From positions 1,116,001 to 1,180,000 of the forward strand of contig OX637624.1 of NCBI GenBank assembly GCA_951802195.1: a DNA stretch of 64,000 bases. The letters run 5' to 3'. The DNA is from Tausonia pullulans (Eukaryota > Basidiomycota > Tremellomycetes > Cystofilobasidiales > Mrakiaceae). The notes under the pieces were generated by a model. That model did no database searches. It worked only from the letters and a program-made list of their open reading frames with translations, and was not told the origin of the DNA. A program made the position numbers and the translations under genes. Numbering within the stretch: the first letter of the stretch is position 1; each line of letters starts with the position of its first letter. Shown one piece after another: positions 36,277 to 52,660 of this stretch.

Positions 36277-37267
36277 CGCAGGAGGGGAGAGGAGGGTGGT
36301 GGTTCAGGGAGAGAGCAGGGCAGGGAGGAGAGGACGAGAGCGAGAGGCGCGCCCTCTTTCGCCCGTCTCCCGATTGGACCAATTCCCTCTCCGTCAGGCA
36401 CCGTTCTCAACAGCATCAGATCTGGCTCGTTCTTCGATCCCATCGAGCCAGAGTGTGGACAGGTGCTCTCCACGTCGCTGATACCCATCCTTGACAACCA
36501 GGGAAGACCCTAGGGAGGAACAGCCCAAGCAGAGAGCATCCTTCCCACTCCTCAGACTACTCCGATCTGCGCCGACGGCGATTCGGCTTCGTCGGACGAG
36601 CGGGTCTGCTGTTCTGGACATGCGATGCGCACGACGACAGAAACGCCTGGGAGAAGTCGGAACAAGAACGCGACGGCCGGGCGAGGAAAGGGTGGAACGG
36701 AGAAGAGAGACAAAGACAAAGAGAGAAGAAGAAAGAGAGTTTGACTGCGCGCGCGCCCACTGCCCGCCACGATGAGTCTTCAATTCATTTAGATCGCCTG
36801 AGGATAGTCAAAGTGGGTAAGCAGCATACAATGAGAGAGGATGTAAGCCTTTGTGCAAAAGGAGTAGGATGGGAGGACGCAGTGTCTACGGCACTAATCG
36901 GCGACATAAGAAGACGGAAGACCCAGAAAATCGAAGGCGAGCAAGTGAGGAGAGCATAAAAGGAAAGAAAAAGCGAAGCAAGGTGTGGGAGTGAGCATAA
37001 TACAAAAAGGGGGGGTGCTCAGCAACAGACGGAAAGCAGTAACGGGGTAAAGCAAAGGGAGAGGGGAAGGGAGACATATCGTTGAGACGCGCCGCTCTCT
37101 TAAGAACAAACCCATCCGAGCGCGACAGCTCGTGGTTTGCTTTGAGCCAGATGAGGAGGACAAGGTAATCATCCGGACTTGAGGTGAAAGATGGACACCG
37201 AGCCCGATTCTCTTGGGGTGAGTCGACGACCACGACGAGTTCGAGTGATTTGGAAGCACGTTCTTCA
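36277..37267. other. SDH1 upstream region / PAC1 3' region
   Basis: 991 bp. Frames here are GC- or Arg-rich and shadow each other; no gene seen. From about 36780 base composition becomes more AT-rich, fitting UTR sequence. Confidence 0.5.
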
Positions 37268-39652
37268 TCACGGCGTCCAGATCTGTGAACCGCGTGATAG
37301 TCCTGTACATCAGCATGGGTGTAAAGAGCTGCAAAGCAAGCACGGAGACTGACCTTGACACTCTGGTCGACTGACCCCGTAGCAAGGACATTCACCTGCC
37401 TCTCTCTGCTCGCCTCGCCTCCCTCACCACCTGCCCCTCCAGACACCACAGCCCGCCCCCAGCTCATACACGTAACAAAATGGCCGTGCGCCTCAATCGT
37501 TTTTGAACATCGCCCCGTCGCGAGGTCCCAGATGCGGACTGTCTTGTCGTCGGAGGCCGAGAGGAGAAACTTGCCGTTCGGGTGAAAGACGAGGGCACGG
37601 ACCCAGTTGTCGTGTCCAATCTGCTTGTGGATGCGTCTCAGATATGGACAAGGGGTATAGAGAGAGAAGAAGAAAAAGACGCACGAGTGTCCGGATGCAC
37701 TGCCCTGACGAGGTCTCCCACAAACGGATCGTCTTGTCTCGCGACCCCGTAGCGAGGTACGCGCCTGGCGACTTTGCCTTTTCGTCTCTCAGCGCCGTCT
37801 GGAGGTTAGTCCAGAGCAGGTTTTCAGTAAGATTTCTCGTTCCAAGTGAAAATGAGGACGATCGACGCGATATTACGCACCTTGACCCCCGCCAGTTCCC
37901 GAATTGCCCCGTACGCTCCTACAGGCGCAAAGATGGCCACCTCGACAACGTGCTCGTGGCCACGCATCTCCATTTTTGTCTCACCTGAGGCAAAGTCCCA
38001 GACTCGGGCCGTCTGAGAGGCGAGAGGCGCGAGAGTAGTCTTCCAGTTAGTTCCACTTCTTGCAGCATAGGAGCGCGTTCATACCTGGTCATTCGAGCAG
38101 CTCGCCAGCAAGCGGCCATCTTCGGACGGGACAACGCATCGCACCCATTCTGAGTGGCCCTGGAACGTCTTCACGCAGAAGCTTAAGGGAGAGTCGGATT
38201 CATCGTCAGCGAGGGTCTTCATCTTCCTCTTTCAAGCCCACTCACCCAGTCGCCACCTCCCAGACCTTGATCGACCGGTCTCGACTCGCCGAGACGACGA
38301 AGTCGCCCGCGGGAGTGAAACGTGCGCTCGATACAGAGTGATCGTGGCCGTAGAGGGTCTTGACATTCTTGTACTCGTTCGCCGTGTCCCAGAGCTTGAT
38401 TGTCAGGTCCGATGAGCACGTCACTGCGGGACAAAGCGAGTGGTGGTCAATTCCCTTCTGAAATTGAAAAATAGAGTGCGAGTGAGAGTAGCGCACCCAT
38501 CAACGCGCCCTTGGAATCAAACTCGACATCCTGGACGCTTTTCGTGTGACCCTTGAGCGTCCGTTCGAAGTCGCCAGACTCCCAATCCCACACCTTGACG
38601 CTCGCGTCTTCTGAAGCTGTTGCAATCACAGAGTACAGAGGGTGGAACGCGACGCGCGTGATCGGCGAACGATGTCCGGCGAGGACGTGGCGGGCGGAGG
38701 CCCGCGGGAGCCAGTCCGTCAGGGAAGCGGATCGCTTGGAGCTAGGAGCGGCGGAGAGCTCCTCGAGGAGAGCGGCGTTCTTCGACTCAAGATCCATGAT
38801 CTGAGGGGGAGAGGGGGGGGGGAAGCCCCAACGAGGTGGGCGCGAGGAGCGTCAGGGAGGGGGTCCGAGGACGAGCGGCGCGTGTGAACGTCAAGGAAGA
38901 GTAGACAGAGCGAGCAGCGAAGAGTGGGCACAGCGGGATTGCCGTTGCCTGATCAAACAGGTGGAGTGCATACAAGGCGAGTCTCCTGGCTTGAACCAGG
39001 CGGGAAGAGAGAAGGTCGCGAAGGACGGGGTCGAGACAGTGTCGCGTCGAGGCAAGCGAAGAGGCCCCCAGACCAACCGGCACGTACGAAGGCCGCCAGA
39101 GCCTCCGACAAGCCTGTAAGGTCTACCCTGCCTCGAAAGATACGTGTGACGGGGTCCTCTCGCTGAACCTAACAAGGCGACGCGTCCGACTAACACAAAA
39201 GCACATGCCAGTGGGCGGGTGACCTTCCTGCCTGCCTCGCGTCCCTTCTTGCCAAGCCCCATCGCGACCAGGTCTTGCCCATGGTCGGGACCATATAGAG
39301 AGGTCACATGCAAGCAGGCGCTAAGGATGTTCAAGCGCACCTTCTTCTGCAAACGAATGACGCTCGTCCATTTCTTCTCGAGGAGACCGGCATGCTTTCC
39401 CTTGGGATCCGGCGCAAAGTCCGCCTGGCGAGTTTCTTCCCGGAGAGCGTCATATGAGGTGGTGAGGCCCGAGTTGTAGAGGTAGTCGAGGATCGATTTG
39501 TGCCTGCAAGCGCACGGTGTGTCAGAATGACGCGGTCTGGGCAAGGCAACAACGCATGGAGAACGAGCGCAAAGAGAAGGGGGAAGGAGGTAGGTTGAAG
39601 GAAAGCCCACGAACAGCTCGTCCTTCTGTCGCTCTGACAGAAGAGAGGTCAT
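37268..39652 (-). CDS. PAC1: Nuclear distribution protein PAC1 (LIS1 homologue)
   Basis: Dynein regulator for nuclear migration along microtubules. Start [13 protein letters not shown], then the LisH motif [20 protein letters not shown], a linker ending [16 protein letters not shown] and a short coiled coil ([17 protein letters not shown]). WD repeats follow: [16 protein letters not shown]...[20 protein letters not shown]...[21 protein letters not shown]...[20 protein letters not shown]...ARVWDF, a repeat with a short insert ending [21 protein letters not shown]...VRIWDL, and a last one ending SVKIWTP. The final coding exon is only 15 nt (37268-37282). The last repeats carry a Gly-rich insert. 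The large spacing of the 5' exons puts the LisH exon about 560 bp from the coiled-coil exon. Confidence 0.93.
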
Positions 39653-40865
39653 GAGTCGCCAAGCCTGGTCGACGGGCGGGCGGGCGGGCGAGCGAAAGTG
39701 GAAGAGGGAGGTTGTTGAGATCGAGCTGAGGCCGAAACAGTAGAGAGGTCGTTCGTTAGGAGGTGGTTCGGGCGGAGTGGCAGCGCGCCATAGCGCGGGC
39801 GAAGCAGTCCAACGGAGGCGACGCGGCTGGGCGCGCGCTCTGACCAGCGAGGAGACCAGAGATGCCACGCATTATTCCGTGGCTACCTATGACCAACGTA
39901 AAGGGACATGCCAGACTAGAGCTGAAGATCATATTTCTCTCTTTCAATGCTGGACAGGCCTGAAAATATTGATTCGCTGTAGTAGCTCTCTCGCATTTCG
40001 CTGCTGTCAGTTCCAGCTTGATCAACTTGTGGTCTATGAACTTGCAACGTCCTTGAGATATCCGGGAGGCGGGAAGACCTTGTTCTTGGTGCTAATGGGT
40101 GCTTCTGGCGAATGACTGATAAAAGTCGGTCGAATCGAGGCTCAGACTCCAAATATTGATCAGCGGTGACGGCCGGCCAACAATGCTCGCAGCGCACATC
40201 CCCGCTTGCCAATGGCCTCGGCTCTCCCATCTGACCAGTCGACCTGACCTTGCTCAAATTGAGGCCAACTAGCTATTCTCAGTAGGCACGCATCCTCGTC
40301 CCCCGAAACCCCAATTAAACACAGTCAAATTGGAGAAGCCTACACGCCGATCTATGCTGCACAGCGCTCGGATCTCATCCAGCCCGCCGCGCACGAAAAA
40401 GTTAGCAAAGAATTCAATGTGCTCGATCTGACAGAGTCAGGTTGGCAAGCCACTGTTCAATGAAATTCCAGAGATCAACTATCATAAGGTACTTGCGTAG
40501 ACGTACGAGACACAAACAGGGTTTCTGGGATACAGTGAGCGAGTTTACACCCTGTACCTCCACGAGGGAATCGTCGTCATTCTACGTTGTTGAGCCAGCT
40601 CCCAGTTTAAAAGCCAAGAGTGATCAATATCAGAGATGATCAAGAAAATACTGCTGAGACCATGACCTCACGGCCAGAATTTTCTCGTTCTTTCAGCTGA
40701 GAAGAGATACGGGCCGAGTGCAATTCGAAACCTTCTTTGTTCAAGGCCAGGCCTCGATCGGCGAGATTTAAGTTCGCTATTCGCCGTGTTCGTCTGCTTG
40801 AATTCACTCCTTCCTGCTTCCACGAGCTCCCTCCTCTCCTCTCTTCTCTCCCTCAATCCGCGAAC
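39653..40865. promoter_or_regulatory. Divergent 1.2-kb region between PAC1 and the esterase array
   Basis: Head-to-head upstream region, more AT-rich than its surroundings (especially 39880-40700). It ends in a CT-rich leader before the ATG at 40866. No complete gene is visible. Confidence 0.5.
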
Positions 40866-43344
40866 ATGTCGAGGTCAGCCAGCTTCACCCCTCTACTTCT
40901 GGGCGTCTACTTCGGACCGTCGTCGTGCTCTGCGGTCGCTTGCCCAGCTCCACGCCACCTTTCACGACGACATTCGCTCGCCAGCGTGCGGAGTTGATAT
41001 CCGGATCGTCAGCTTGATCGCCGACCAACCACCCCTCTTCCTGGCTGGTTACCCCCTTTCTCTTCTGCATGCCCTTTGCTTCATTCCCTCGGGGTCCCTC
41101 ATCTTCCCGTTCAGTGTCAAGCACGCGAGACCTTGCTGTGGTCTCCGCTCGAAGGGGATCGATGATGATGAGGTCAAGCCCTCGGTTGCCACGACGAGCT
41201 CGTAGCCCATCAAACCCTCTATCTTCTACCGAAGCTTCTCCATATAAATTTATGTTGGCCAAAGAGCTTACGCGTTTGACACCAACAGACCCTACGAGTC
41301 CGAGGTGGACGTTCCTCTTATTTCGACACCCGCACGCAAGGCTCTGGCAGGGCGAGGAGCGGGCTTCCTCGCGTGCCTTCGCCTAACTCGGCGAGTCCGA
41401 ATGAGCGTCCTCCTCACGCTCGTCTTTCTCCTTGGGACGTTCTGGAGCCAGTGGGTGTCTTCCCGTGCCATCTAGTCGTGCATATCCGGACTGTACTGAT
41501 GCTGTACTCGCTCCTCAGCCAAACCAATTCTTTCGCCTACTCCGCCGACCTCCGGGCCTTCCTTGCCCAACCACTCCCACCGCACCCCTTTGATCCGCCC
41601 GGCGTGCTCTCCTTCAACGAGAGCAACGCCTTTGACACCCGTTGGGAACCCTCGCTAGTTTTCCCAGTCCCCAATTACCTGCTCCGCGGCGAAGATGTGA
41701 ACAAGACCGTGTCCATCCACTCCAGGCCGAAACGACACATTCCGCGGCTGATGTCGAAGCTTGTGATGCACCTCGTCGGCAATGACGCCGTCGTCCGCAA
41801 CCGGTACGAAGATTCGGTGGCGCGCTTCAAGGAGACAAGTCAGGCTGCCGATGTGGAGGGAGAGGAGGATGAGAAGAATGAGGAGGACGAGGAGGAAGAC
41901 GAGGAGGAAGACTTGGAGTGGCTCCGTGGACGTACGATCCTTCTCCTCGGCGACTCGATCGACCGATTCCATCTTAGTGAGTCTCTAACCTCAGCTTTGG
42001 CGCTCATTTTTCTATTCTTACGGCGGTTCATCTACCAACCCTTCTCAGCTCACCTTTGCGGTTTCACACACGTCTCCGACCCTCAGCACCACACGCCCTG
42101 GCCGTGGGCCCGGGAAGAGGACAACGGGATCTCCATCATCGGCTCTCCCAGCCCGCCGTCGGCCGACAAGTCACCCTACCCCCTAGAGCTGCAGCAGCTC
42201 GAGCATGACCTCTCGCTCGAGCTTCGTGAGGGCAAGCCCTGGGGTTCGCCCCTCGGACGGCCGCATGTCTGCGAGATTAAGCAGCTCGACCTCGTCCTCC
42301 TCTGGAGCTTCTCCCCAGGTCTCGACGACGGCATTACCACGCCCGGGCTCGTCGACTTCCAGAACGGAACGATGAGTACAGAGGGTGTCTGGGGGGAGAG
42401 AGCACTAGCTCAGCCTTTTGGACCGAAGGCATTCTGGCCGATCCAGTGCGTAGACTGACTCTTACTTGAGGTTGGCCATTCCGCCGGCCATCTAACTGAT
42501 GACCTTTCGTCCTTGATTTCTCAGGACCGGCCACTTCTCACCACCCCATGGACCTGAGGAGCGACTTCGGAGGCTCGTCCTACCCTTGCTGGCCAATCTT
42601 GGGCGCAAGACGGTTGACTTCGTCGAAATTGGCATCGGGCCTTGGGACCTGCACATGTTCAGGGTGAGCTCCACCTCATGTACCCTTCTTCCTTGGACAT
42701 CTCTCTGATGCTTCTCTTCTTGGCCTGGTAGCTTCAGGACGAGAAGGCGGTCGACAAGTGGCTCAAGAGTGGAGATCCAAACGCATGGGGGTCCGTCGCT
42801 GATCACGCTCCTGCTCTGAGCTCAAAGCCGTTGATTCCAGAGCGGCTGGCCTGGCTCGAGGCCCGTACGGAAGCCTGGCTCACAGAGGTTCTAAAGGCGT
42901 TTCCGGGCACCGAAGCTGGTCCTCGAGTCGGGATCCACGCGATGCACATCACGCCTCAGACTAGAGGGTACCCGCAGCTCGAGGTCGCCCGTCGAATCGA
43001 CCAGGTCGAGGTCGTCGTCCGTGACGTTGTCGCGCGAATCAACGCTCGGGCGAACGGCCGGGTGGCGGACATGACTCGGCTGAGCGAGTGGCCTAGGATG
43101 ATCCGAGAGGCGGCGACCTTCAGGGACCACATCCATCGTGAGCAGCGGTCGGAACTCGCTATCGAGCAAGCGCTGATCGCGAAACGTTCCTTTCTCTAGC
43201 TGAGAACACGCCATCGAGCTGGATCTGGTCCGACATGATACTTTATGGTCAGTCGCCTTGATCATTGGTCGATACTTGACCATTAATTTGACCGTCGCTC
43301 GTTTGTCCACAGAGTTCAGGAAACTGGTCGTTGGGAAGGATTGA
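40866..43344 (+). CDS. Type II membrane SGNH/PC-esterase-like protein (array gene A)
   Basis: Uncharacterised esterase-like protein. My 5' model: an 8-nt coding exon (ATG TCG AG) at 40866, a 415-bp intron (GTCAGC donor, ACCAACAG acceptor), then an exon from 41289 giving MSRPYESEVDVPLISTPARK. This leads to the membrane segment MSVLLTLVFLLGTFWS with Arg residues before it, so a cytosolic tail and lumenal body. A minimal start is the ATG at 41401. The lumenal part has an acidic run (Glu/Asp, about 41850-41915), then RTILLLGDSIDRFHL (the Ser of GDS as likely nucleophile), LVLLWSFSPG, VEIGIGPWDLHMF, GIHAMHITPQTRG and FRDHIHPENTPSSWIW, a DxxH-type dyad as in PC-esterases. It ends FRKLVVGKD. Substrate unknown. 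It heads a tandem esterase array. Confidence 0.72.
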
Positions 43345-43725
43345 AAGAGGGGACGAAGCTTTGATTAGGGGATTTAGATGGTCACTTTTTGGGATTTTTA
43401 TGTATTGCCTAGACGATCTACAGCCGAGGAAGAGAGAGAGGGACTATCCGTCTGGTCCGATGCACAGCGTGGTTTCGTGCTCCCCGGCTTGCCGGATAAG
43501 GCTTCCTATCAACGTTTTTGCCAACAAGCAGGGGTGATCGGCGATCGGCTTCGTCGGACTGGATGGAGTCCGCCGAGGAAGGGAAAGAGGAGGAAATTGG
43601 GGCTCCAAACTCTATGGACCGCACTTTGTTTTTGTTCGTCTCGATGACTATGAAAGCTCCTCATATACAGGCGGGCAGCCGCGAGTGCCGGGGGATATCC
43701 ATAGAGTAATCTAACGACCATCAGC
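43345..43725. other. Spacer between array genes A and B
   Basis: 381 bp with no coding signal. It serves as the 3' end of gene A and promoter of gene B. Confidence 0.5.
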
Positions 43726-45643
43726 ATGGATGACTCGACTTTGCTTGATGCCGACCTGAAGGACAACCGTGGACTCGTCAAACTCGAGAGCCAGGCGTCG
43801 TCGCGACCTGCTCTACTCAATGACGAACGAGCTGCTGGCTCTTCTTCCAGCCTCAGCAAGCACGGGAGGCTCTCCCTCCCCGCCGGCGACGACGAGGAGG
43901 CTCAGCGGCTTCTGCCGCCTTCACAGCGACAGCGTCATCGCATCGACCCTCAGTCTCGCCGTTATTGGCCTCATCAGCAGCCCGCTTCCACCTGCGCCAG
44001 CAGCCCATACTTTTCCCACAAAATCGCCGGATTCAGCATCAGGCTCATCCTCCTCCTCCTGCTTCTTCTGATGATCGGCGTGGCGTTCCAGTTCACCAAT
44101 AGGACATGTCTCTCGTCAGCTTCGGTGAACCAGCGCGCGCCGACGACCGACGATCTTCACCATCCGCTTCCCATTCGTCGAGGACCAGGCGCGCCTGTCG
44201 ACCGACTCATTGACTTTAGTGGTCGATGGGTTCAGAACAACGTGACCAACGGCTACACCACTGGATGGCAAGCCTTGCGTCTTCCGCTCTCTATCACTCG
44301 CTTTCAGGCTGACAGTCAAATCCCATTGGGCGGCATACCCACGTGCGCTGTCGTTGTCGCCCGATTCACAGGTCCGGCTCCTCAGCTCGCATCATGTTCT
44401 ACGGGTCTCGGCTCGATTGGACCCCTGGTCCGCTTACTCAGAGCAAGGCTGGCAAGACCAGGACGGTTGCCTGGTCCTTGAACGGTACAGAGGCGGGCGG
44501 AGTCTACATAAAGAACTACGACCCGATCACTCTCATCGACAATTCGTCGCCGGCGCTTTATGTGGTAGCGATCTGGCTCACCGACTACGAGTCTTTCCTG
44601 GATCTTGGGCACTTCACGACGTCGGCGGTTAGTGACATCGTGCGAGCTCTAGGCACAAGATGGCCGCGGTCTGACGGACGACGTGTTCCTTATATCACAC
44701 CGCCATAGGATGGCGGCTTTGCTCCTCCCCCTCCCCGAGCAAACGACGGAGTCCGTCTAACTTTCATCGGTGATTCCGTCACGGTGGGTACCTTGCCATC
44801 ACTCAACTCAAATAATCGCTGCCACCGTCGCATTCGCCACATGGACGACGCAAGATGCTGAACCGCTCTGTTCTGTCATTATACTATCAGACCGGCCTCA
44901 AAGCTTCTGGATCGGTTAGCGAGGTCGATTCGTTCAACGTCTACGCGGCTCTCATAGCCCGCCGACTGGACGCCCCTCTCAACCTAGTGTCGTTCCGTGA
45001 GTGGCCCAGCAACTATAGCCTGGCGCGATCTGCGAGGTTCCATCCACTCACGTTTGATGCCTTTGCTCTGCAGCTGGCATAACCCTACGAGACGATCCGG
45101 ATCGCGGCAAGGGCATGATGACCCGGTACGAGTGGGCCGACTCAGGTCACACCGCGGACCCGTATAATGCTTCGCTTGACAGACCTACGCACATCTTCAT
45201 CAACATCGGTGCGTGTCTCTTTCCGCTGTGGGATGACTTACTCCTAACGAGCTCGTTTTGTCAAACTCCTCGTGTCCATAGGCGTCAATGATCAGTACAT
45301 GAATCAGACCGCCGAGGGTTTCGTCGGAACCCTTGAGACCTTCCTGGACCGTCTCATCGTTCTGCATCAAGACACCAACCCTCGGATCTACGTCGTAGAT
45401 CCCTTTGGCTGGTTCCTCCCGAATCCCGCCGCTGGGGGCACGCTGACGAGGCTCGCCGTTTGGAGTCCGGAGGTAGCCTACTTGGTTAGGACCAAATTTG
45501 CTGGACCAGACGGCCGCCACCCTCGTGTGCGCTTTATCGACACAGACGGATGGCTCTCTTCTGAATTCACTCAGGACGGCCTCCATCCGACGGTTGCAGG
45601 AAATGTTAAGGTGGCAGACCGGCTCGAGGCTTTCCTGATGTAG
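43726..45643 (+). CDS. Membrane-anchored CE2-like SGNH esterase (array gene B)
   Basis: Start MDDSTLLDADLKDNRGLVKL; a tail of about 105 residues (Ser/Arg-rich) precedes one membrane segment, RLILLLLLLLMIGVAFQF. The lumenal part begins with a beta-sandwich-like module: LIDFSGRWVQNN, WSGSSARIMFYGSRLDWTPG, ALYVVAIWLTDYESF. The SGNH domain follows: LTFIGDSVT (block I Ser), HIFINIGVNDQY (block III Asn) and FTQDGLHPTVAGN (Asp/His). A jelly roll before an SGNH domain is the layout of CE2 carbohydrate acetyl esterases; assignment to CE2 is inference. The first large intron (44268-44371) uses a GC donor (ATG|GCAAGC). Frame-keeping splices were found at each junction. Likely a Golgi or cell-surface enzyme. 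Confidence 0.82.
44268..44371 (+). other. GC-AG intron in array gene B
   Basis: Donor GCAAGC, acceptor TTCACAG. It joins GGATG to GTCCGGC and restores TGWSGSSARI. Gene D has a standard GTGAGT donor at the homologous position (TAW|SGSTIRF), which supports the call. Confidence 0.8.
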
Positions 45644-46029
45644 GAATCCTTCACCTCTCCTACTATTTCTTGACTCCCACCTGTCTTTTTCCTTCGGTCC
45701 GTTTTTCTCCTTGTTCTTCTTAGATGTTCCTACTGCTCTTCCTGCTCTATTGTTTCCTCCCTCGTTTAGATGTCTCACATCCGGCCGTCGACATTCAGCG
45801 GCTGTTCCTACCTTCTTCTTGCCAGTCTTCTTTCCTGTACATGTATATTCGCCTCGGCGCGACACCGCGATCGTAGACAGAGTATCAGCAATTGTCCCTC
45901 CGTCGGCTTCCCTTGCTTCCCGCTTAACGACGATACAGGCTCTCTCTTGATGTACCGCAGCATGATGAAGAGGGACACTACCGAGCGCCAAATATCTCCC
46001 TCAGCATTTGCGGCATCACGCATGGGTGA
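45644..46029. other. Spacer after array gene B
   Basis: Non-coding to my reading. It has T/C-rich stretches just after the gene B stop. It may hold unrecognisably decayed 5' parts of the pseudogene that follows. Confidence 0.4.
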
Positions 46030-46930
46030 GTCTTGATCGATCTGGCTCACGGGCTATGAAGCTTTCACTAATTTTGGATCTTTGGCGTGGAGGTAGTGCG
46101 TAGGGCGTGCACGAGCCCAGAGTATCTCGCAGGGCTGAAATCGGCGGCTCTCGCACTGAACGTCATCATCGCTCTGTCTACGTGAGAACGAGGATGTCCG
46201 GCTCCCTTTCACCGGAGACTCTCTGGTTATCTGTCCTTATTTGTCCCTTATCTACTCATACTGCGTGGCCACTGATGAAGCTTTGCCTCTAAGGCCTTCG
46301 GCCGGCTTTTAGGAAGGGCGCAGCTCTCGCCGATCGTTCGACTGCTACCCAGCGTTCATCTCCCGGAGTTGGACGCACGCCTCGATCTCGTTGCCTTCCG
46401 TGAACCTCCAAGCTCCTTATTTGCCAAATTATATAATTCTGATGTCTGCTGAAGTGCAGTTAAGATTATCCTCGAGGATAAAACGAGGCTCAATAGGATG
46501 AACACGAGATACGAACAGATTGGGCCATAGCTCGATGGGCAGCTTTGGAGCGCTTCGTCGAATGCGCCGGTTCATTTCTTCGTCAATCTCAACGAGCACA
46601 GCTGTGTGAAGGGGAATTTCATCACAAGGCTGACCACCTGATCTCACTCCTGGCTGTCTTGTTAAGGCTTCAACGATCAATTTCACTTCTGGCAGGCCGA
46701 CGAGCTCGTGTCCGCCCTTGGGTTTGTTCCTCGATCAACACCTCCCCCTTCACAGCACCAGTGTCCAGCGGGACTCAATTTCCAAACTGTTGCCCCCTTC
46801 TCTTTGGATCTGATGGCTTCCTGTATTTCCCAGAACATTGCCACTATGACCCGCTGCGAGTTTTCTAGGGCAGATGTCCGGGCTCAGTTGCCACGGGTCG
46901 GCACAGATGGGCGGCTCTACTTTGCCCGTT
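46030..46930 (+). pseudogene. Decayed CE2-like SGNH esterase copy (array pseudogene C)
   Basis: Disconnected pieces in the order expected for a paralogue of genes B and D. Near 46040: WLTGYEAFTNFGSL (B: WLTDYESFLDLGHF). Near 46330-46400: SFDCYPAFISRS, then in another frame LDARLDLVAFRE (D: SFNSYPAVISRN; B: LDAPLNLVSFRE). Near 46500: TRYEQIGP, an in-frame TAG, then LDGQLWSASSNAPVHFFVNL (D: TRYERTGPQFDALQWNASWD and CFVNIG). Near 46670: GFNDQFHFWQADELVSAL (B: GVNDQYMNQTAEGF). Near 46815: QNIATMTRCEFS...GTDGRLYF (D: DDVATMLHRDFS). No GDS-serine block or terminal DxxH block was found. So it has at least one frameshift, one stop and missing ends. Confidence 0.75.
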
Positions 46931-47988
46931 CTTCTTCCCTCTTTCCTTGTCTTCTGTTCATCTCGCTGACTAAACACCATATCCATTCTTACAACGAAAA
47001 CTCGGGGTCAGCTCCGCCCAGCAGCAGTCAAGGGCCGCCAGAATATCGCGAACTGATTGGGGCCATTCTTTTCGAGGGATGAGTGGCTGGCTCGACTTCG
47101 AATCACTCTTGCTCCGTATTTCTTGTCCTGCCTGCACCTTATATTACCTCTCCATGTCGTCCAAATTTATCTGGCCTCTTATCCAAGGCTTATCAAGGGC
47201 GGCGCTGCACTCCTCCTCTCCCTGCTGCCTCTGTGACCGATGAGAGGTGAGGCCGCCACTTGTCCGGTTACGTTTCACTCATGCTTAAGGATGCTCTCGC
47301 TTATTCGCTCACTCGTTCAAAGATTTGTTTAGAATCGTTGGTTCCCCCCTGTGCTGCTGCAGGTGAGATGGACTCACATTTTGATTTTTTTTGTCACCGC
47401 CGGGGCCTGGATGTGAATCTTGATCGAACGAATGACCGAACAACGTTTTTGGCTTGCCGCAGTCTGGCTACCTTTTAGACAAGGACATCTCGAAGGAAAT
47501 ATGCTAAAGCATGAGGATCTCTCTGACCAATAAAATAGGAAGAACCACGAAGGCCAACCAGATCCGTTGGGCTAGCCACCTTTTCCTGTAGAATCCGACC
47601 GTTGAGTCAAAAGACCAACCTATTCCGCATTCTCACCTTGCGTGCGTCAAGTCTGTTGGGCAAGCTCGAATCTTCTGTTATCGTCCGGAGATTTGACCGA
47701 CAACCGCTGTTCGGATCGATTTGCTGGCTGCGAAACCAAACCTCTTCCTCTGCGATGCATATTGAAGGGTGCTAACGCTTGTCTACTGGTAGACGTTATG
47801 CCGCAAGAGAGCCCTTCATCTCGCCCCAGACGGTAAGGTCATTCGAAACCCGCCCGCGGAAGAGAGAGGTGACAACCCTGCCCTGACGGACGCCTCCTCC
47901 CTCGTTCCCGTTCAATTCGCTATGAGCTGCGACCCCTGCGTGGAGCGAGTCGACCTCTCTCCCGCTCGCCCCTCACCCTTCAACACCA
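46931..47988. other. 1.06-kb spacer before array gene D
   Basis: Lower GC than the genes around it. I could not trace further esterase fragments with confidence. The last 100 bp are the leader of gene D. Confidence 0.4.
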
Positions 47989-49684
47989 ATGACCCCTGCC
48001 CTAGTAAAAACTGTGGACAACGACGAGGGCAATGGCCTCAGGGTGATGCGTCTGCCAGAGACTCAGCCCCTCCTGCCCCGCCATCAAGACGCCGACCCTG
48101 TACATTCTAAGTCCTCTGTGAGGCCTCGCAAGCTTCTCCCTCTCACCTTTCCCGCCCTCCTCCTCGTTCTCACGATCATGATGAGCGTGGCACTCTTCAC
48201 CCTTGGTTGCTCGCGGTTTCTATCTCAACCGTCGCCGGCGACCCCAGCTTCTCCGCCGCCTCCTCCTGCGAAGGCGGTGACGTCGGCTCACCCCCTCTTT
48301 GAGCTCTCCGGAAGATGGGCATACAACGCTTCAACCAAGGCCTATATGACTGCCTGGTGAGTCTCTAGATCAGACTTCTCTGCTTGGCGGGTGCCAACGG
48401 CGTTATATCCTCGCCTGCACGTAGCACAAGCGTCACCCCCACGTGCTGACGTCTCTTCGATTTTGATCCTTTTCGCCTAGGTCCGGGTCCACGATCCGAT
48501 TCTCCTTCTTCGGCACTCGGCTGAACTGGACGCCTGGGCCTTCGACGCAAAGCCGGGGCCTCTCGAGGACGGTCGTTTGGACGGTCAATAGAGTCCATCG
48601 AGGAGAGGCTGTCCTTCAACCGCCGAGACGCGACTCTCTCACCCTGGTGGACGAGCTGGAAGCTTCTCAATGGCTCGTGGAGATTTGGCTCGCTGACTAC
48701 GAGGCCGTTCTCGAGCTTGGAAGTTTTGAGACATCGATAGTGAGTACAGATACTAACAGAGACAGATGTTTCAGAGTCAGGCTGACTCGTCCGCCCCTCA
48801 ATCTCAGAACGGTTCCATCACTGCTCCACCTCCACGCCAGAGCGAGAGTGTGCACCTTCAATTCATTGGCGATTCGTTGACGGTTCCTCCCTCACCCGCT
48901 ATTGTCTATACAACCGCACGCCAATGCTTACGTGTCCCTGACCACCAGGCCGGCTTCCAGTGCAGAGAGGATGCCGCCCTCGTCGACTCGTTCAACAGCT
49001 ACCCAGCAGTTATTTCTCGGAATTTGGGCGCACACCTCAATCTCGTTGCCTTTCGTGCGTTCTCCCGGCCTCTTGCGTCGGCTTTCTGGCTGACCTTCAA
49101 TTGAACATCCAGCGGGCATCGCACTCATGGACGACCAGGCACACTCGTCCAACTCGGGCATGGTCACTCGCTATGAAAGAACGGGTCCCCAGTTCGATGC
49201 ACTCCAGTGGAACGCGTCGTGGGATGCCCCAGTCACGCATTGCTTTGTCAACATCGGTGCGCTACAATCAGCTGGCCCGCTGCCCCGCCGTCGTGATTGA
49301 GGACGTCAGTCTTAATTTAATGCTCCGCACTCGATCCCATCCCATCCAGGTACCAACGATCTCTTCCGAGGAACACCAGCAGGCGATTTCGTCGAGGCCC
49401 TCTCTACCTTCCTCGGCTGCCTCCTCGCCCTCCATGGCCCCACTCTTCAACGAGCGTTCGTGATCGATCCGTTCGGGGTCTTCTCGGAAGGCTCTCGGCG
49501 GCGCATCTTTTCCGACGACGTCGCCACCATGCTCCACCGCGATTTCTCGGGCCTCAACGGGCAGCCTCGCATCGACTTCATCGACACAGAAGGGTGGATT
49601 TCGCCGGTGCTCACGCAGGACCTCCTCCACCCGACGGTCCAAGGCCACCAGAAGATTGCGGACCGGCTGGTAGCCTATCTGTAG
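47989..49684 (+). CDS. Membrane-anchored CE2-like SGNH esterase (array gene D)
   Basis: Paralogue of gene B. From the ATG at 47989: MTPALVKTVDNDEG, LPETQPLLPRH, then the membrane segment LLPLTFPALLLVLTIMMSVA. The beta-sandwich-like module shows FELSGRWAYNASTKAYMTAW, spliced to SGSTIRFSFFGTRLNWTPGP and LVEIWLADYEAVLELGSFET. The SGNH domain has VHLQFIGDSLT, LVDSFNSYPAVISRNLGAHL, HCFVNIGTNDLFRGT, RAFVIDPFGVF and LTQDLLHPTVQGHQKIADRL, keeping the Ser, Asn, Asp and His positions. It ends LVAYL. An earlier ATG (47922) is in a different frame that stops at 48110. It looks intact, about 480 residues. Confidence 0.82.
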
Positions 49685-49855: not shown

Positions 49856-52660
49856 TCAGGCCGAAGCGTACCTCGACTTTGCGCGGAGGTTGGCGCCGTC
49901 ACGCTGAGGGAGAAGAGGAGCATGTAAGACAAAGTCATAAGCAGCGAAGAAAGAGAACGACGGAGACGGACCTTGATGTACCAGAAGATCGGGATCATAA
50001 TTGCGCTGAGACCAGCGAGGAGGGACGAGCCACCGCCGAGACCTGGAGGGGGAGCCGTCAGCGCCGGACAGATTAGCAATATCTGTTTGACTGAGGACTT
50101 ACCAAGCACCTTGTAAAAGGCGTGACCGAAGAGCGGGAAACATCCGGCCATGACGCTCCGGAGGAAGCAATTGGCCGCCATGACTGCCGCCGAGTGGCTT
50201 GGATAGGCCGTCGGGAGGTAGACACTGGGGAAGAGAGAGGTCAAAAAAGCTGCTCGAGAAATGGGAAACGACAATGGCAAACACGCTCACAGGATGCTCT
50301 GAAACGTGAAGAAAACACCGGGGAGGTACAGAGCTCCGAAAATGACCGGGAAGATCCAGTGCACCGACTCGCGCGCCGTCCACCCGAACAGGAGAGTCAC
50401 TACAGGGATCGAAAGGCTGGCGAGGAAGCCAATCTCAAGCCTGTCCTCAGGAACTGGAAGTCGAGAGTTAGCGCTGGATGCAGTGCAAGAGTGAGGAAGG
50501 AGGCGGCGAGCGAGCGACTGACCGAATGTGCCAGCAGCCAGAAGCTTTGCGACGCGCAGCCGTTGATAGTAGATGTAGACTACAACCATAATGACACCGG
50601 TGACCTGTGTAGAATAGAGTCAGCTGTTGGACATCGAGAGATAAGCAAGCAGATATGAATGGCCGTACCAAGAAAGCGAGGAACGGGAGCTGCGAGGTGC
50701 CGAGGTTCCACCCGTAGACACCCTCCTTAGAATAAATGAGCGGAAAGGATTCAAAGAACTGCGGGGTGATGGAGTCAGGAGGAGACTCCAAGAGAGCGAC
50801 CGCGAAACAGCGACGCACGAGGTAGAAGATGGCGTAGACCAGGCCGAGGTAGAAAGAAAAGATAAAGATGACGGGCTCAAAGAGCACTGAGGACGATAAT
50901 TGAGTCCGTGTAGTATCACTCGTTGACCGGATGACGCTGACTCACTTTTAAATGGCTGGATGAATGCGTGGGAGAATACGGCCGAGAGTTGCATGTTCTT
51001 CTGGTCGATCTCGCTCTGCGAGCGGAGGTTTTGGTTGCCGGTGACCTTTCGGAGCCGCCGGGCCTTGCGAAGGAGAATGGTCGACGGGAGGGTCCTAAGG
51101 GAGGGAAATGACAATGAAAACATCAGACTGTGAGAGTAGGAAAGAGAACACGTCGCGCTGCTTGGACTCGACTCACTCGGGCAGGAGGAAGAACAGGACG
51201 ATAAACGAGAAAGCCGCGAGCCAGGAGAGAATCATCATCGGCCACTGCCAACCGTTAACACCCATGTTCATCGCCGGGTAGCCACCGAGGACGGGGCCGA
51301 TAACCTGTTAAGTGTGCGATGGGACGTTAGTCCGGCAACGGGAAGTTCAGGTCTCGAATGCATATGACTCACGGGACCCAGAACAGCCCCGACGGACCAA
51401 ACAGCCATGGCGTAAGGAACAGTCCGAGAAGGCCACTGGAAAATTCAAGATCATGTGAGTCAGTCAAGTTTCTCTCAGGCGCTTTTGAACACCACCACCT
51501 ACAATATCCTGGATCGTCGCGCCACCGGTCGAGAGCGACGGGCTACCGACGAAGCCGGCAAGGAACCGGAAGAAGAGCAAGCAGCCCATATTGGGCGCAA
51601 ATATGACGGGCAACTGAAAGAGTGTGAAGGTGAACACGCCCACAACGTAGCCGGGAGTCCGCCCAGTGATGGGAAGAGATTGCATGCTGGCGGAAAGCAG
51701 CGAAGTCTTGGTCAGTGTCTGCGGTCAATAAAGGACGGAGAACGGCTGAACGCCTGCGTGCTCACGGAGCGAGAAAGAGCGGGCCAACCCCGTAGCCTAG
51801 AGGATGGATATGTGCATGGTTAGTATTGGCTTCCAGCCGTTGACATGAGCAATCACTTACCGATGACAAAGAGAGAAAGACCCAGAGTAGCCTCAGTGCT
51901 GCTGCAACCAAAGTGCACCATGAGGCCAGGAATAGACGTGGTGTAGATAGCGCTTCCCGAGTATATGCTGAACGTCAAGATGCATATGAGGATGGTGGTG
52001 AAGGCCTTCTTTCGCGTCGTCCAGTTCTGCGGATTCTCCGGGTCGTCGGGGCCATCCCAGTCTACGAGGTCTGACATCTTCTCTGAGGGTGGGCTCGCCG
52101 CTGCGGACATCTCGGGAAAATTCTCGGCAGCCTTCTGTTGCCTGTTAGAAAGAATGGAAAACCGTGTCGAGTCGTGTTAGCAGATGAGATCCGAGATGGC
52201 GGAAAGCGGTGAAGAGTGCGTGAGTAGCGGACCTAAGAATCTCGCAGACCTCGTTGCCACCCTCGAGGGCATCATTGCTCAAGGGATGGTGCCGCAGGGT
52301 GCACATCTCCTTCTCCTTAATGGCGGTGCAGATGGAAGCGGCGTCTGGGACAATCCCTCGGACAGGCTGGTCGCTGGATCTGAGCGTGTCCGATTTGGAA
52401 AGTGCGCGCTCTGGGACTGCAAGGCCCTCAATAGGCGTGATGGTACCTGAGGGAGGAGGCGTCTTCTTCTTGGAGTCCGGGCTGGCATCCTGGTCGACGA
52501 GGGTCCGGAGAGATGGCGCCCTAGTCGTCCCGTTCGAGGTAAGATAGCGGCTGGGGACGACGAAGCCGGGCCGCTGTTCGGGGTACTGGAGGAGCTTGCC
52601 GTCCGACGCCCAGTTCAGGATCTGGCCAAACGTTGAATCTCGAAGCATTTCGGGCGCCAT
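49856..52660 (-). CDS. MFS multidrug transporter, DHA1 (polyamine/drug:H+ antiporter) type
   Basis: Twelve-span plasma-membrane exporter. A long cytosolic N-terminus of about 200 residues starts MAPEMLRDSTFGQILNWASD and is Ser/Pro-rich. The core opens DPENPQNWTTRKKAF, the usual motif before helix 1 in Tpo/Flu-type transporters. Then SIPGLMVHFGCSSTEATLGL, the DHA1 motif-C-like GYGVGPLFLAP, FFRFLAGFVGSPSLSTGGAT, VWSVGAVLGPVIGPVLGGY, PETLPSTILLRKARRLRK and FFESFPLIYSKEGVYGWNLG. Late helices include VYLPTAYPSHSAAVMAANCF and GLGGGSSLLAGLSAIMIPIF. The last exon gives KRDGANLRAKSRYASA. Substrate cannot be told. It is tail to tail with the esterase array, 171 bp from gene D. Confidence 0.9.

Follow-up and report, generated by a model that had tools for sequence, protein, structure and literature searches.

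Putative type II membrane CE2 esterases and a decayed family copy at one locus of a fungal genome

Introduction

What would membrane-anchored relatives of CE2 esterases do in a fungus, and on which glycans would they act? This question is raised by a window of 64,000 nucleotides (the whole stretch of DNA analysed here, C5:1116001-1180000). The genome to which it belongs is intron-rich, comprises 21 contigs with a total of 23.9 Mb, and is regarded as fungal on the basis of its genes (e.g., CAS1 and PAC1) and of an earlier note on the same DNA. Four features of the window, genes A, B and D and a remnant, C, lie in one orientation (plus strand), all inside about 8.5 kb. The earlier note had described a tandem array of three apparently intact genes for anchored SGNH/CE2-like esterases, together with decayed pieces of another. 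What it observed for B, D and C holds. Gene A is a different or weaker case, with another family, an unsettled first exon and a weak hydrophobic segment. The count of three intact genes stands for B and D, which have complete spliced models, and is plausible for A.

Family membership and catalytic motifs

The kinship of B and D with CE2, as proposed in the earlier note, is well supported by profiles, by alignment and by the folds of homologs. Pfam Lipase_GDSL_2 is found above its cut-off in B, in D and in an unlinked paralog, E. When B alone was searched against PDB sequences, two CtCE2 chains were the sole matches at E<=1; a profile built from B, D and E brought up 12 sequences at E<=0.1, headed by seven CE2 enzymes. 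The same profile aligns by hhalign with three CE2-type proteins (a Kutzneria protein, P0005 and P0004) at 99.6% over 299 columns that span both domains. The structure model of the Kutzneria homolog, a bacterial protein, matches CE2 over both domains, and SsfX3 shares this two-domain fold with a lower Z than the CE2 entries. The model of another homolog, P0003, adds weak support (pLDDT, the predicted local distance difference test, 43.5). The Kutzneria sp. 744 protein has, by eye, a signal-peptide-like start, and its locus is the sole one confirmed for the fungal profile (1 of 38 pattern matches).

The catalytic motifs are all in place. Gene B encodes GDS, FPG, GVND and DGLHP, and gene D encodes GDS, FPG, GTND and DLLHP; the Ser of GDS, the Asn of GxND and the His of DxxHP are present in B, D and E and invariant in all six aligned proteins, while the Asp of DxxH is absent in P0005 and the block II Gly in the Kutzneria homolog. 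The hallmark of a Ser-His dyad, a Trp in the DxxH of block V, is found in none of B, D and E, which have DGLH (B and E) or DLLH (D) at this position. In the description of a 2022 review, a dyad with Trp displacing Asp is common but not universal in CE2, and CjCE2A is an exception with a triad (PMC9487903). Since block V lacks the Trp, a catalytic triad would be expected, and B and D look like the triad (CjCE2A-like) type rather than the dyad type.

Predicted membrane anchor and N-terminal tails

Genes B and D encode proteins of a common build, as the earlier note had also claimed: a tail leads into a single hydrophobic segment, which is followed by a region with homology to the CE2 beta-sandwich and then by the SGNH domain. 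Each has one strong hydrophobic stretch, at residues about 103-121 in B (KD19 maximum 2.72) and about 56-74 in D (2.41), preceded by roughly 100 and 50 residues, respectively. All glycosylation sequons (6 in B, 4 in D) lie beyond the segment. This arrangement supports the view that B and D are type II membrane proteins, and the anchor style suggested for them by the earlier note is supported as a predicted topology.

Both tails contain, in similar surroundings, an acidic dileucine of the form [DE]xxxL[LI] (EAQRLLPPSQ in B, ETQPLLPRHQ in D), which may be there by chance. A published precedent is the yeast vacuolar protein Ypq1, for which an EQQPLL signal acting via AP-3 is described (PMC4649669). 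The likeness to that signal is suggestive of an endosomal or vacuolar address and makes it a serious rival to the Golgi or cell surface, the case for it being at least as good. No Golgi-retention signal was seen in the two tails by eye, which is not a systematic search.

Gene models and duplication history

Both genes splice in frame to a stop through six exons, giving predicted proteins of 491 (B) and 428 (D) residues. The first intron of B begins with GC. Some splice sites required a choice: the start of B exon 4 was picked from three in-frame acceptors by its match to D and to known SGNH sequences, and the acceptor of D exon 3 (48808) from several in-frame options. The open frame of D's first exon has no in-frame ATG further upstream, and an additional upstream exon may exist. 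In the ectodomain alignment, B and D have all five introns at the same columns and in the same phases (columns 25, 119, 144, 182 and 235; phases 2, 0, 0, 1 and 1). Four of the five are also found in E, where the intron at column 144 is absent. This agreement is not fully independent, because B and D were compared with each other when some of the splice sites were picked; even so, the identical positions give strong support to the gene models and to common descent.

The B and D proteins are 46.6% identical over 335 residues (blastp, E 3e-95). Codon positions 1, 2 and 3 differ by 0.42, 0.36 and 0.64 across 400 aligned codons, and 65% of 105 four-fold sites at identical residues differ between the two. 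From this pattern, B and D are evidently old duplicates still maintained under constraint.

Remnant C, the decayed pieces of the earlier note, is shown by its matches to be a decayed copy of the same family, lying between B and D and nearest to D. An 85-bp stretch of its DNA is 80% identical to D (blastn, E 4e-15), and its protein match to D (tblastn, E 3e-7) comes in pieces with stops and frame changes. Three repeat families (D1-D3), 34-40 nt long, recur in all of B, C and D; the copies of C, at 46038, 46334 and 46369, keep the register of B and D, and one family also has a 60% copy at 51480, outside the genes. An extension of C from 46666 to about 46930, with a GFND-like stretch, is possible but weak, as shuffled sequences score equally well 92 times (B) and 27 times (D) in 500. 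A hydrophobic stretch at 45770-46030 was rejected as the membrane segment of C, since its score was equalled in 259 (B) and 299 (D) of 500 shuffles. Among the shuffle-tested stretches, there was no convincing match for the membrane part or the 3' end of C.

The family extends beyond the window. A whole-genome search with the B ectodomain, in which the best candidates were scored and which therefore sets a lower bound on copy number, hit exons at three loci, those of B, D and E. Paralog E, unlinked on C4, has 391 residues with a short hydrophobic leader; its build is closer to that of ordinary secreted CE2, and the protein could be secreted or anchored. A genome search with Lipase_GDSL_2 gave four matches: a single exon in B, another in D, and two further genes (on C7 and C1), neither of which was listed in the B-ectodomain search. 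An A1 profile search returned four proteins, among them P0002, which by eye corresponds to exons 2 and 3 of E with the intron read through. A search of the protein collection with B found none at E<=0.001; it scored the 7996 candidates with the most shared words for a query with a low-complexity tail, so that absence is not implied.

Gene A and its paralogs

Gene A keeps its frame to a stop through eight exons, and its 5' end can be drawn in several ways. The start of exon 1 at 41158 is arbitrary; the first exon may begin from an ATG at 40866, from which 29 single-intron choices keep the frame. The earlier note gave A the same anchor style as B and D. A hydrophobic segment is present, and its best window (KD19 1.43) falls below the usual threshold of 1.6. 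As a relative of B and D, gene A was rejected: no relationship was detectable by blastp, and hhalign gave a probability of 0.3%. The true tandem array is therefore B-C-D.

The earlier note had also assigned A a PC-esterase-like core. The motifs of that reading are present, GDS and DHIHPxxxPxSW, the second of which resembles a longer motif of plant polysaccharide O-acetyltransferases. GDS[IL]DR and DH[IV]HP are conserved in A and in two paralogs, F and G. The name 'PC-esterase-like' is taken from these motifs; Pfam gave no match for A up to E 1 or for F and G up to E 10, and PDB sequences gave none for A and none for an A/F/G profile at E up to 10. The Pfam test with PC-esterase (PF13839) is a weak one, because it also missed the SGNH stretch of the genome's own CAS1 gene and matched no control genome. 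A kinship of A with that CAS1 protein was tried by hhalign and rejected, 27 residues being aligned at 8% probability in block I alone. A protein fragment from another source (P0001) is 91% identical across half of gene A.

Some further features of these genes can be recorded. An acidic tandem repeat (GATGAGGAG type) lies at window positions 41850-41912, within gene A and immediately ahead of its GDS motif; the equivalent stretch in the paralogs is shorter and different. Both F and G are about 20 kb from a contig start, and G seemingly also has a GC-AG intron.

Genomic neighbourhood

The features are collected in Table 1. Pfam was run on 30 open reading frames of the window, namely 28 of the 62 listed at >=180 residues (the other 34 being left out) plus two shorter ones. 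Among these 30, no glycan-synthesis gene or glycan cluster was recognised beside the array, and no biomass-degradation family was recognised. The neighbour of gene A, divergent to it, is a PAC1/LIS1 gene. Mammalian LIS1 binds an SGNH-type platelet-activating factor (PAF) acetylhydrolase, and 1vyh (LIS1/PAF acetylhydrolase) was among the structure matches; the position of PAC1/LIS1 beside SGNH genes is probably a coincidence. On the other side, a possible MFS transporter adjoins D, of which the piece at 51467-51724 alone matches Pfam MFS_1, at 20 bits and so below the curated cut-off of 33.4. Rfam gave 0 matches at gathering score over the window. Phenylalanine ammonia-lyase, looked for as a clue to lineage, turned up no match in a search that can overlook genes split into exons. 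A bacterial-type promoter scan of 43300-43800, which is not apt for a fungus, gave nothing.

Table 1. Positions of the genes and the remnant discussed in the text (window positions unless a contig or locus is given)
Feature	Position	Strand	Exons	Description
Gene A	41158..43344	+	41158-41201, 41265-41450, 41519-41976, 42049-42445, 42525-42663, 42732-43137, 43200-43247, 43313-43344	SGNH-like protein of a separate, PC-esterase-like type
Gene B	43726..45643	+	43726-44267, 44372-44627, 44709-44783, 44891-44996, 45074-45208, 45282-45643	Tail, hydrophobic segment, CE2-type N-terminal region and SGNH domain
Remnant C	46038..46638 (about)	+		Decayed B/D-family copy, fragments only
Gene D	47989..49684	+	47989-48356, 48481-48739, 48808-48882, 48949-49054, 49113-49256, 49350-49684	Tail, hydrophobic segment, CE2-type N-terminal region and SGNH domain
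PAC1/LIS1 gene	36886-39871	-		LisH and WD40 by Pfam
Possible MFS transporter	50471-51724	-		Adjoins D
Paralog E	G000:C4:1260693-1259250 (L030)	-		Unlinked B/D paralog
Paralog F	G000:C6:20156-21346 (L031)			Gene A paralog
Paralog G	G000:C4:21012-22834 (L032)			Gene A paralog
CAS1-type gene	G000:C5:186987-188443 (L040)			Acyltransferase; upstream SGNH stretch
Kutzneria sp. 744 CE2 protein	L039 1042-2049			Homolog of B and D

Proposed role and its alternatives

Our preferred account, held tentatively, is that B and D are CE2 O-acetylesterases of the type II membrane class that act on the fungus's own glycans and are sent to the endosome or vacuole by the dileucine. After synthesis, the N-terminal tail would stay cytosolic, the single segment would anchor the protein and the catalytic part, beta-sandwich and SGNH domain together, would face the lumen of the secretory or endosomal system. 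On leaving the late Golgi, B and D would be routed by the acidic dileucine to an endosomal or vacuolar compartment, there to remove acetyl groups from glycans delivered for turnover. As substrate, one of the fungus's own O-acetylated glycans or glycoconjugates would be the most likely, rather than plant material. A CAS1 gene is present in the genome (PF07779; of four exon matches, three score above the cut-off, the best at E 4e-52), which makes an O-acetylated glycan of its own a plausible substrate for B and D. The stretch upstream of the CAS1-type acyltransferase is SGNH-like, with GDS and DGLH; when it was roughly joined, Pfam recognised no family in it.

Several points weigh against this account. 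When the tails are shuffled, the dileucine motif turns up in 18% of cases for B and 10% for D, and 20, 28, 54 and 74 of 500 shuffle pairs contain a shared tail window as good as the real one (lengths 10, 11, 12 and 8, respectively), so that the tails argue weakly for an endosomal or vacuolar address. A second acidic dileucine is found in the B tail, at residue 2, and E, the unlinked copy, lacks a tail of this kind. The predicted CE2 fold of B and D, well supported as it is, is read from homologs and profiles. Pfam CE2_N scores 14.6 bits in D against a cut-off of 27.9, though over profile positions 3-108 of 108, and has no match up to E 1 in B and E, nor in an exon-by-exon search of the genome. 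The NCBIfam CE2-like equivalogs are far below their cut-offs (the AxeC2 model gives E 5e-5 against B and 2e-8 against E). Finally, esterase activity is not guaranteed, because the structural neighbour SsfX3 is an acyltransferase.

The accounts that compete with this one overlap with it and with each other in part, and so do their odds. The strongest of them, unlikely but with a real claim, is the reading of the earlier note: it places B and D in the Golgi or plasma membrane, where they would adjust the O-acetylation of glycans that the fungus makes for its own wall or for secretion, while these are being synthesised. A type II build is typical of Golgi glycan enzymes, and CAS1 would supply the writer of such groups. 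There is also a precedent in plants, whose Golgi GDSL deacetylases OsBS1 and OsDARX1 are described as thought to act on xylan (PMC11360243). However, both tails hold an acidic dileucine where no Golgi-retention signal was seen, and the recognised neighbours, PAC1 and the sub-threshold MFS piece, include no gene of glycan synthesis.

It is improbable that B and D are instead CE2 esterases for plant polysaccharides, which the fungus would expose on its cell surface or free by proteolysis in order to feed on acetylated hemicellulose. Characterised relatives are reported to be active on acetyl-xylan or mannan (PMC9487903), and a fungal CE2 structure, 4xvh, exists. Against such a role, long tails precede the segment in B and D, E alone of the three intact copies has a leader as short as a signal peptide, and the 30 scanned reading frames hold no biomass-degradation family. 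Activity on small acetylated molecules (e.g., acetylated glycolipids), or an SsfX3-like transfer of acyl groups, is a slim prospect, the sequence profiles preferring CE2. A similarly slim one is a joint writer-eraser picture in which A, as a PC-esterase-like type II acetyltransferase of the Golgi, and AP-3-routed B and D in the endosome or vacuole would together control the acetyl turnover of the fungus's own glycans, CE2 having been recruited from biomass degradation to housekeeping. Slimmer still is a linked writer-eraser set, compatible with both the endosomal or vacuolar and the Golgi accounts, in which A is an O-acetyltransferase and B and D the matching esterases: the GDS and DxxH of A resemble motifs given for plant polysaccharide O-acetyltransferases (PMC11360243) and all the genes share one orientation within about 8.5 kb, but A, F and G match nothing in Pfam or PDB, the alignment of A with CAS1 stops at the 27 residues given above, and the linkage of A with B and D may be chance, because F and G do not adjoin E.

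Comparison with known systems

CE2 enzymes have been recorded in several settings. Anaerobic fungi are reported to carry CE2 genes similar to bacterial ones (PMC8778642), and an oomycete CE2 without a signal peptide is on record (PMC4176579). The characterised GDSL-1 and GDSL-2 enzymes covered by the 2022 review, CE2 included, act on plant cell-wall polysaccharides (PMC9487903). In the open-access literature searched, no description of a type II membrane CE2 was found, although one may exist, and no fungal eraser of O-acetyl groups on fungal glycans was found named. If our preferred account is true, a maintained pair of membrane-tethered CE2 enzymes, together with CAS1, would point to such an eraser, and the tail motifs make its site of action a simple localisation question.

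Gene A resembles the SGNH domain of PC-esterase and Cas1 in its GDS, DxxH and N-terminal hydrophobic segment, but has no statistically supported match to them. B and D resemble the known CE2 enzymes (CtCE2, 2wao; CjCE2A, 2waa; Est2A, 3u37; the fungal 4xvh) in the order of their two domains, in their SGNH motifs and in profile similarity across the whole ectodomain, and differ in that a tail and hydrophobic anchor replace the signal peptide and in that block II reads FPG. SsfX3, a salicylyl-acyltransferase of a tetracycline pathway, has its two-domain fold in common with the Kutzneria homolog. The rice OsBS1 and OsDARX1 reportedly belong to a different branch of the GDSL proteins, one that lacks the CE2 N-terminal domain. 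Their described function, the removal of acetyl groups within the secretory pathway, is like the role proposed for B and D (PMC11360243). Human SIAE is likewise an SGNH-fold glycan O-acetylesterase of the secretory system, whose placement in the lysosome or the Golgi is presented as debated (PMC8319020); unlike B and D, it is secreted in cell culture and belongs to another SGNH family, listed as SASA (PMC9487903).

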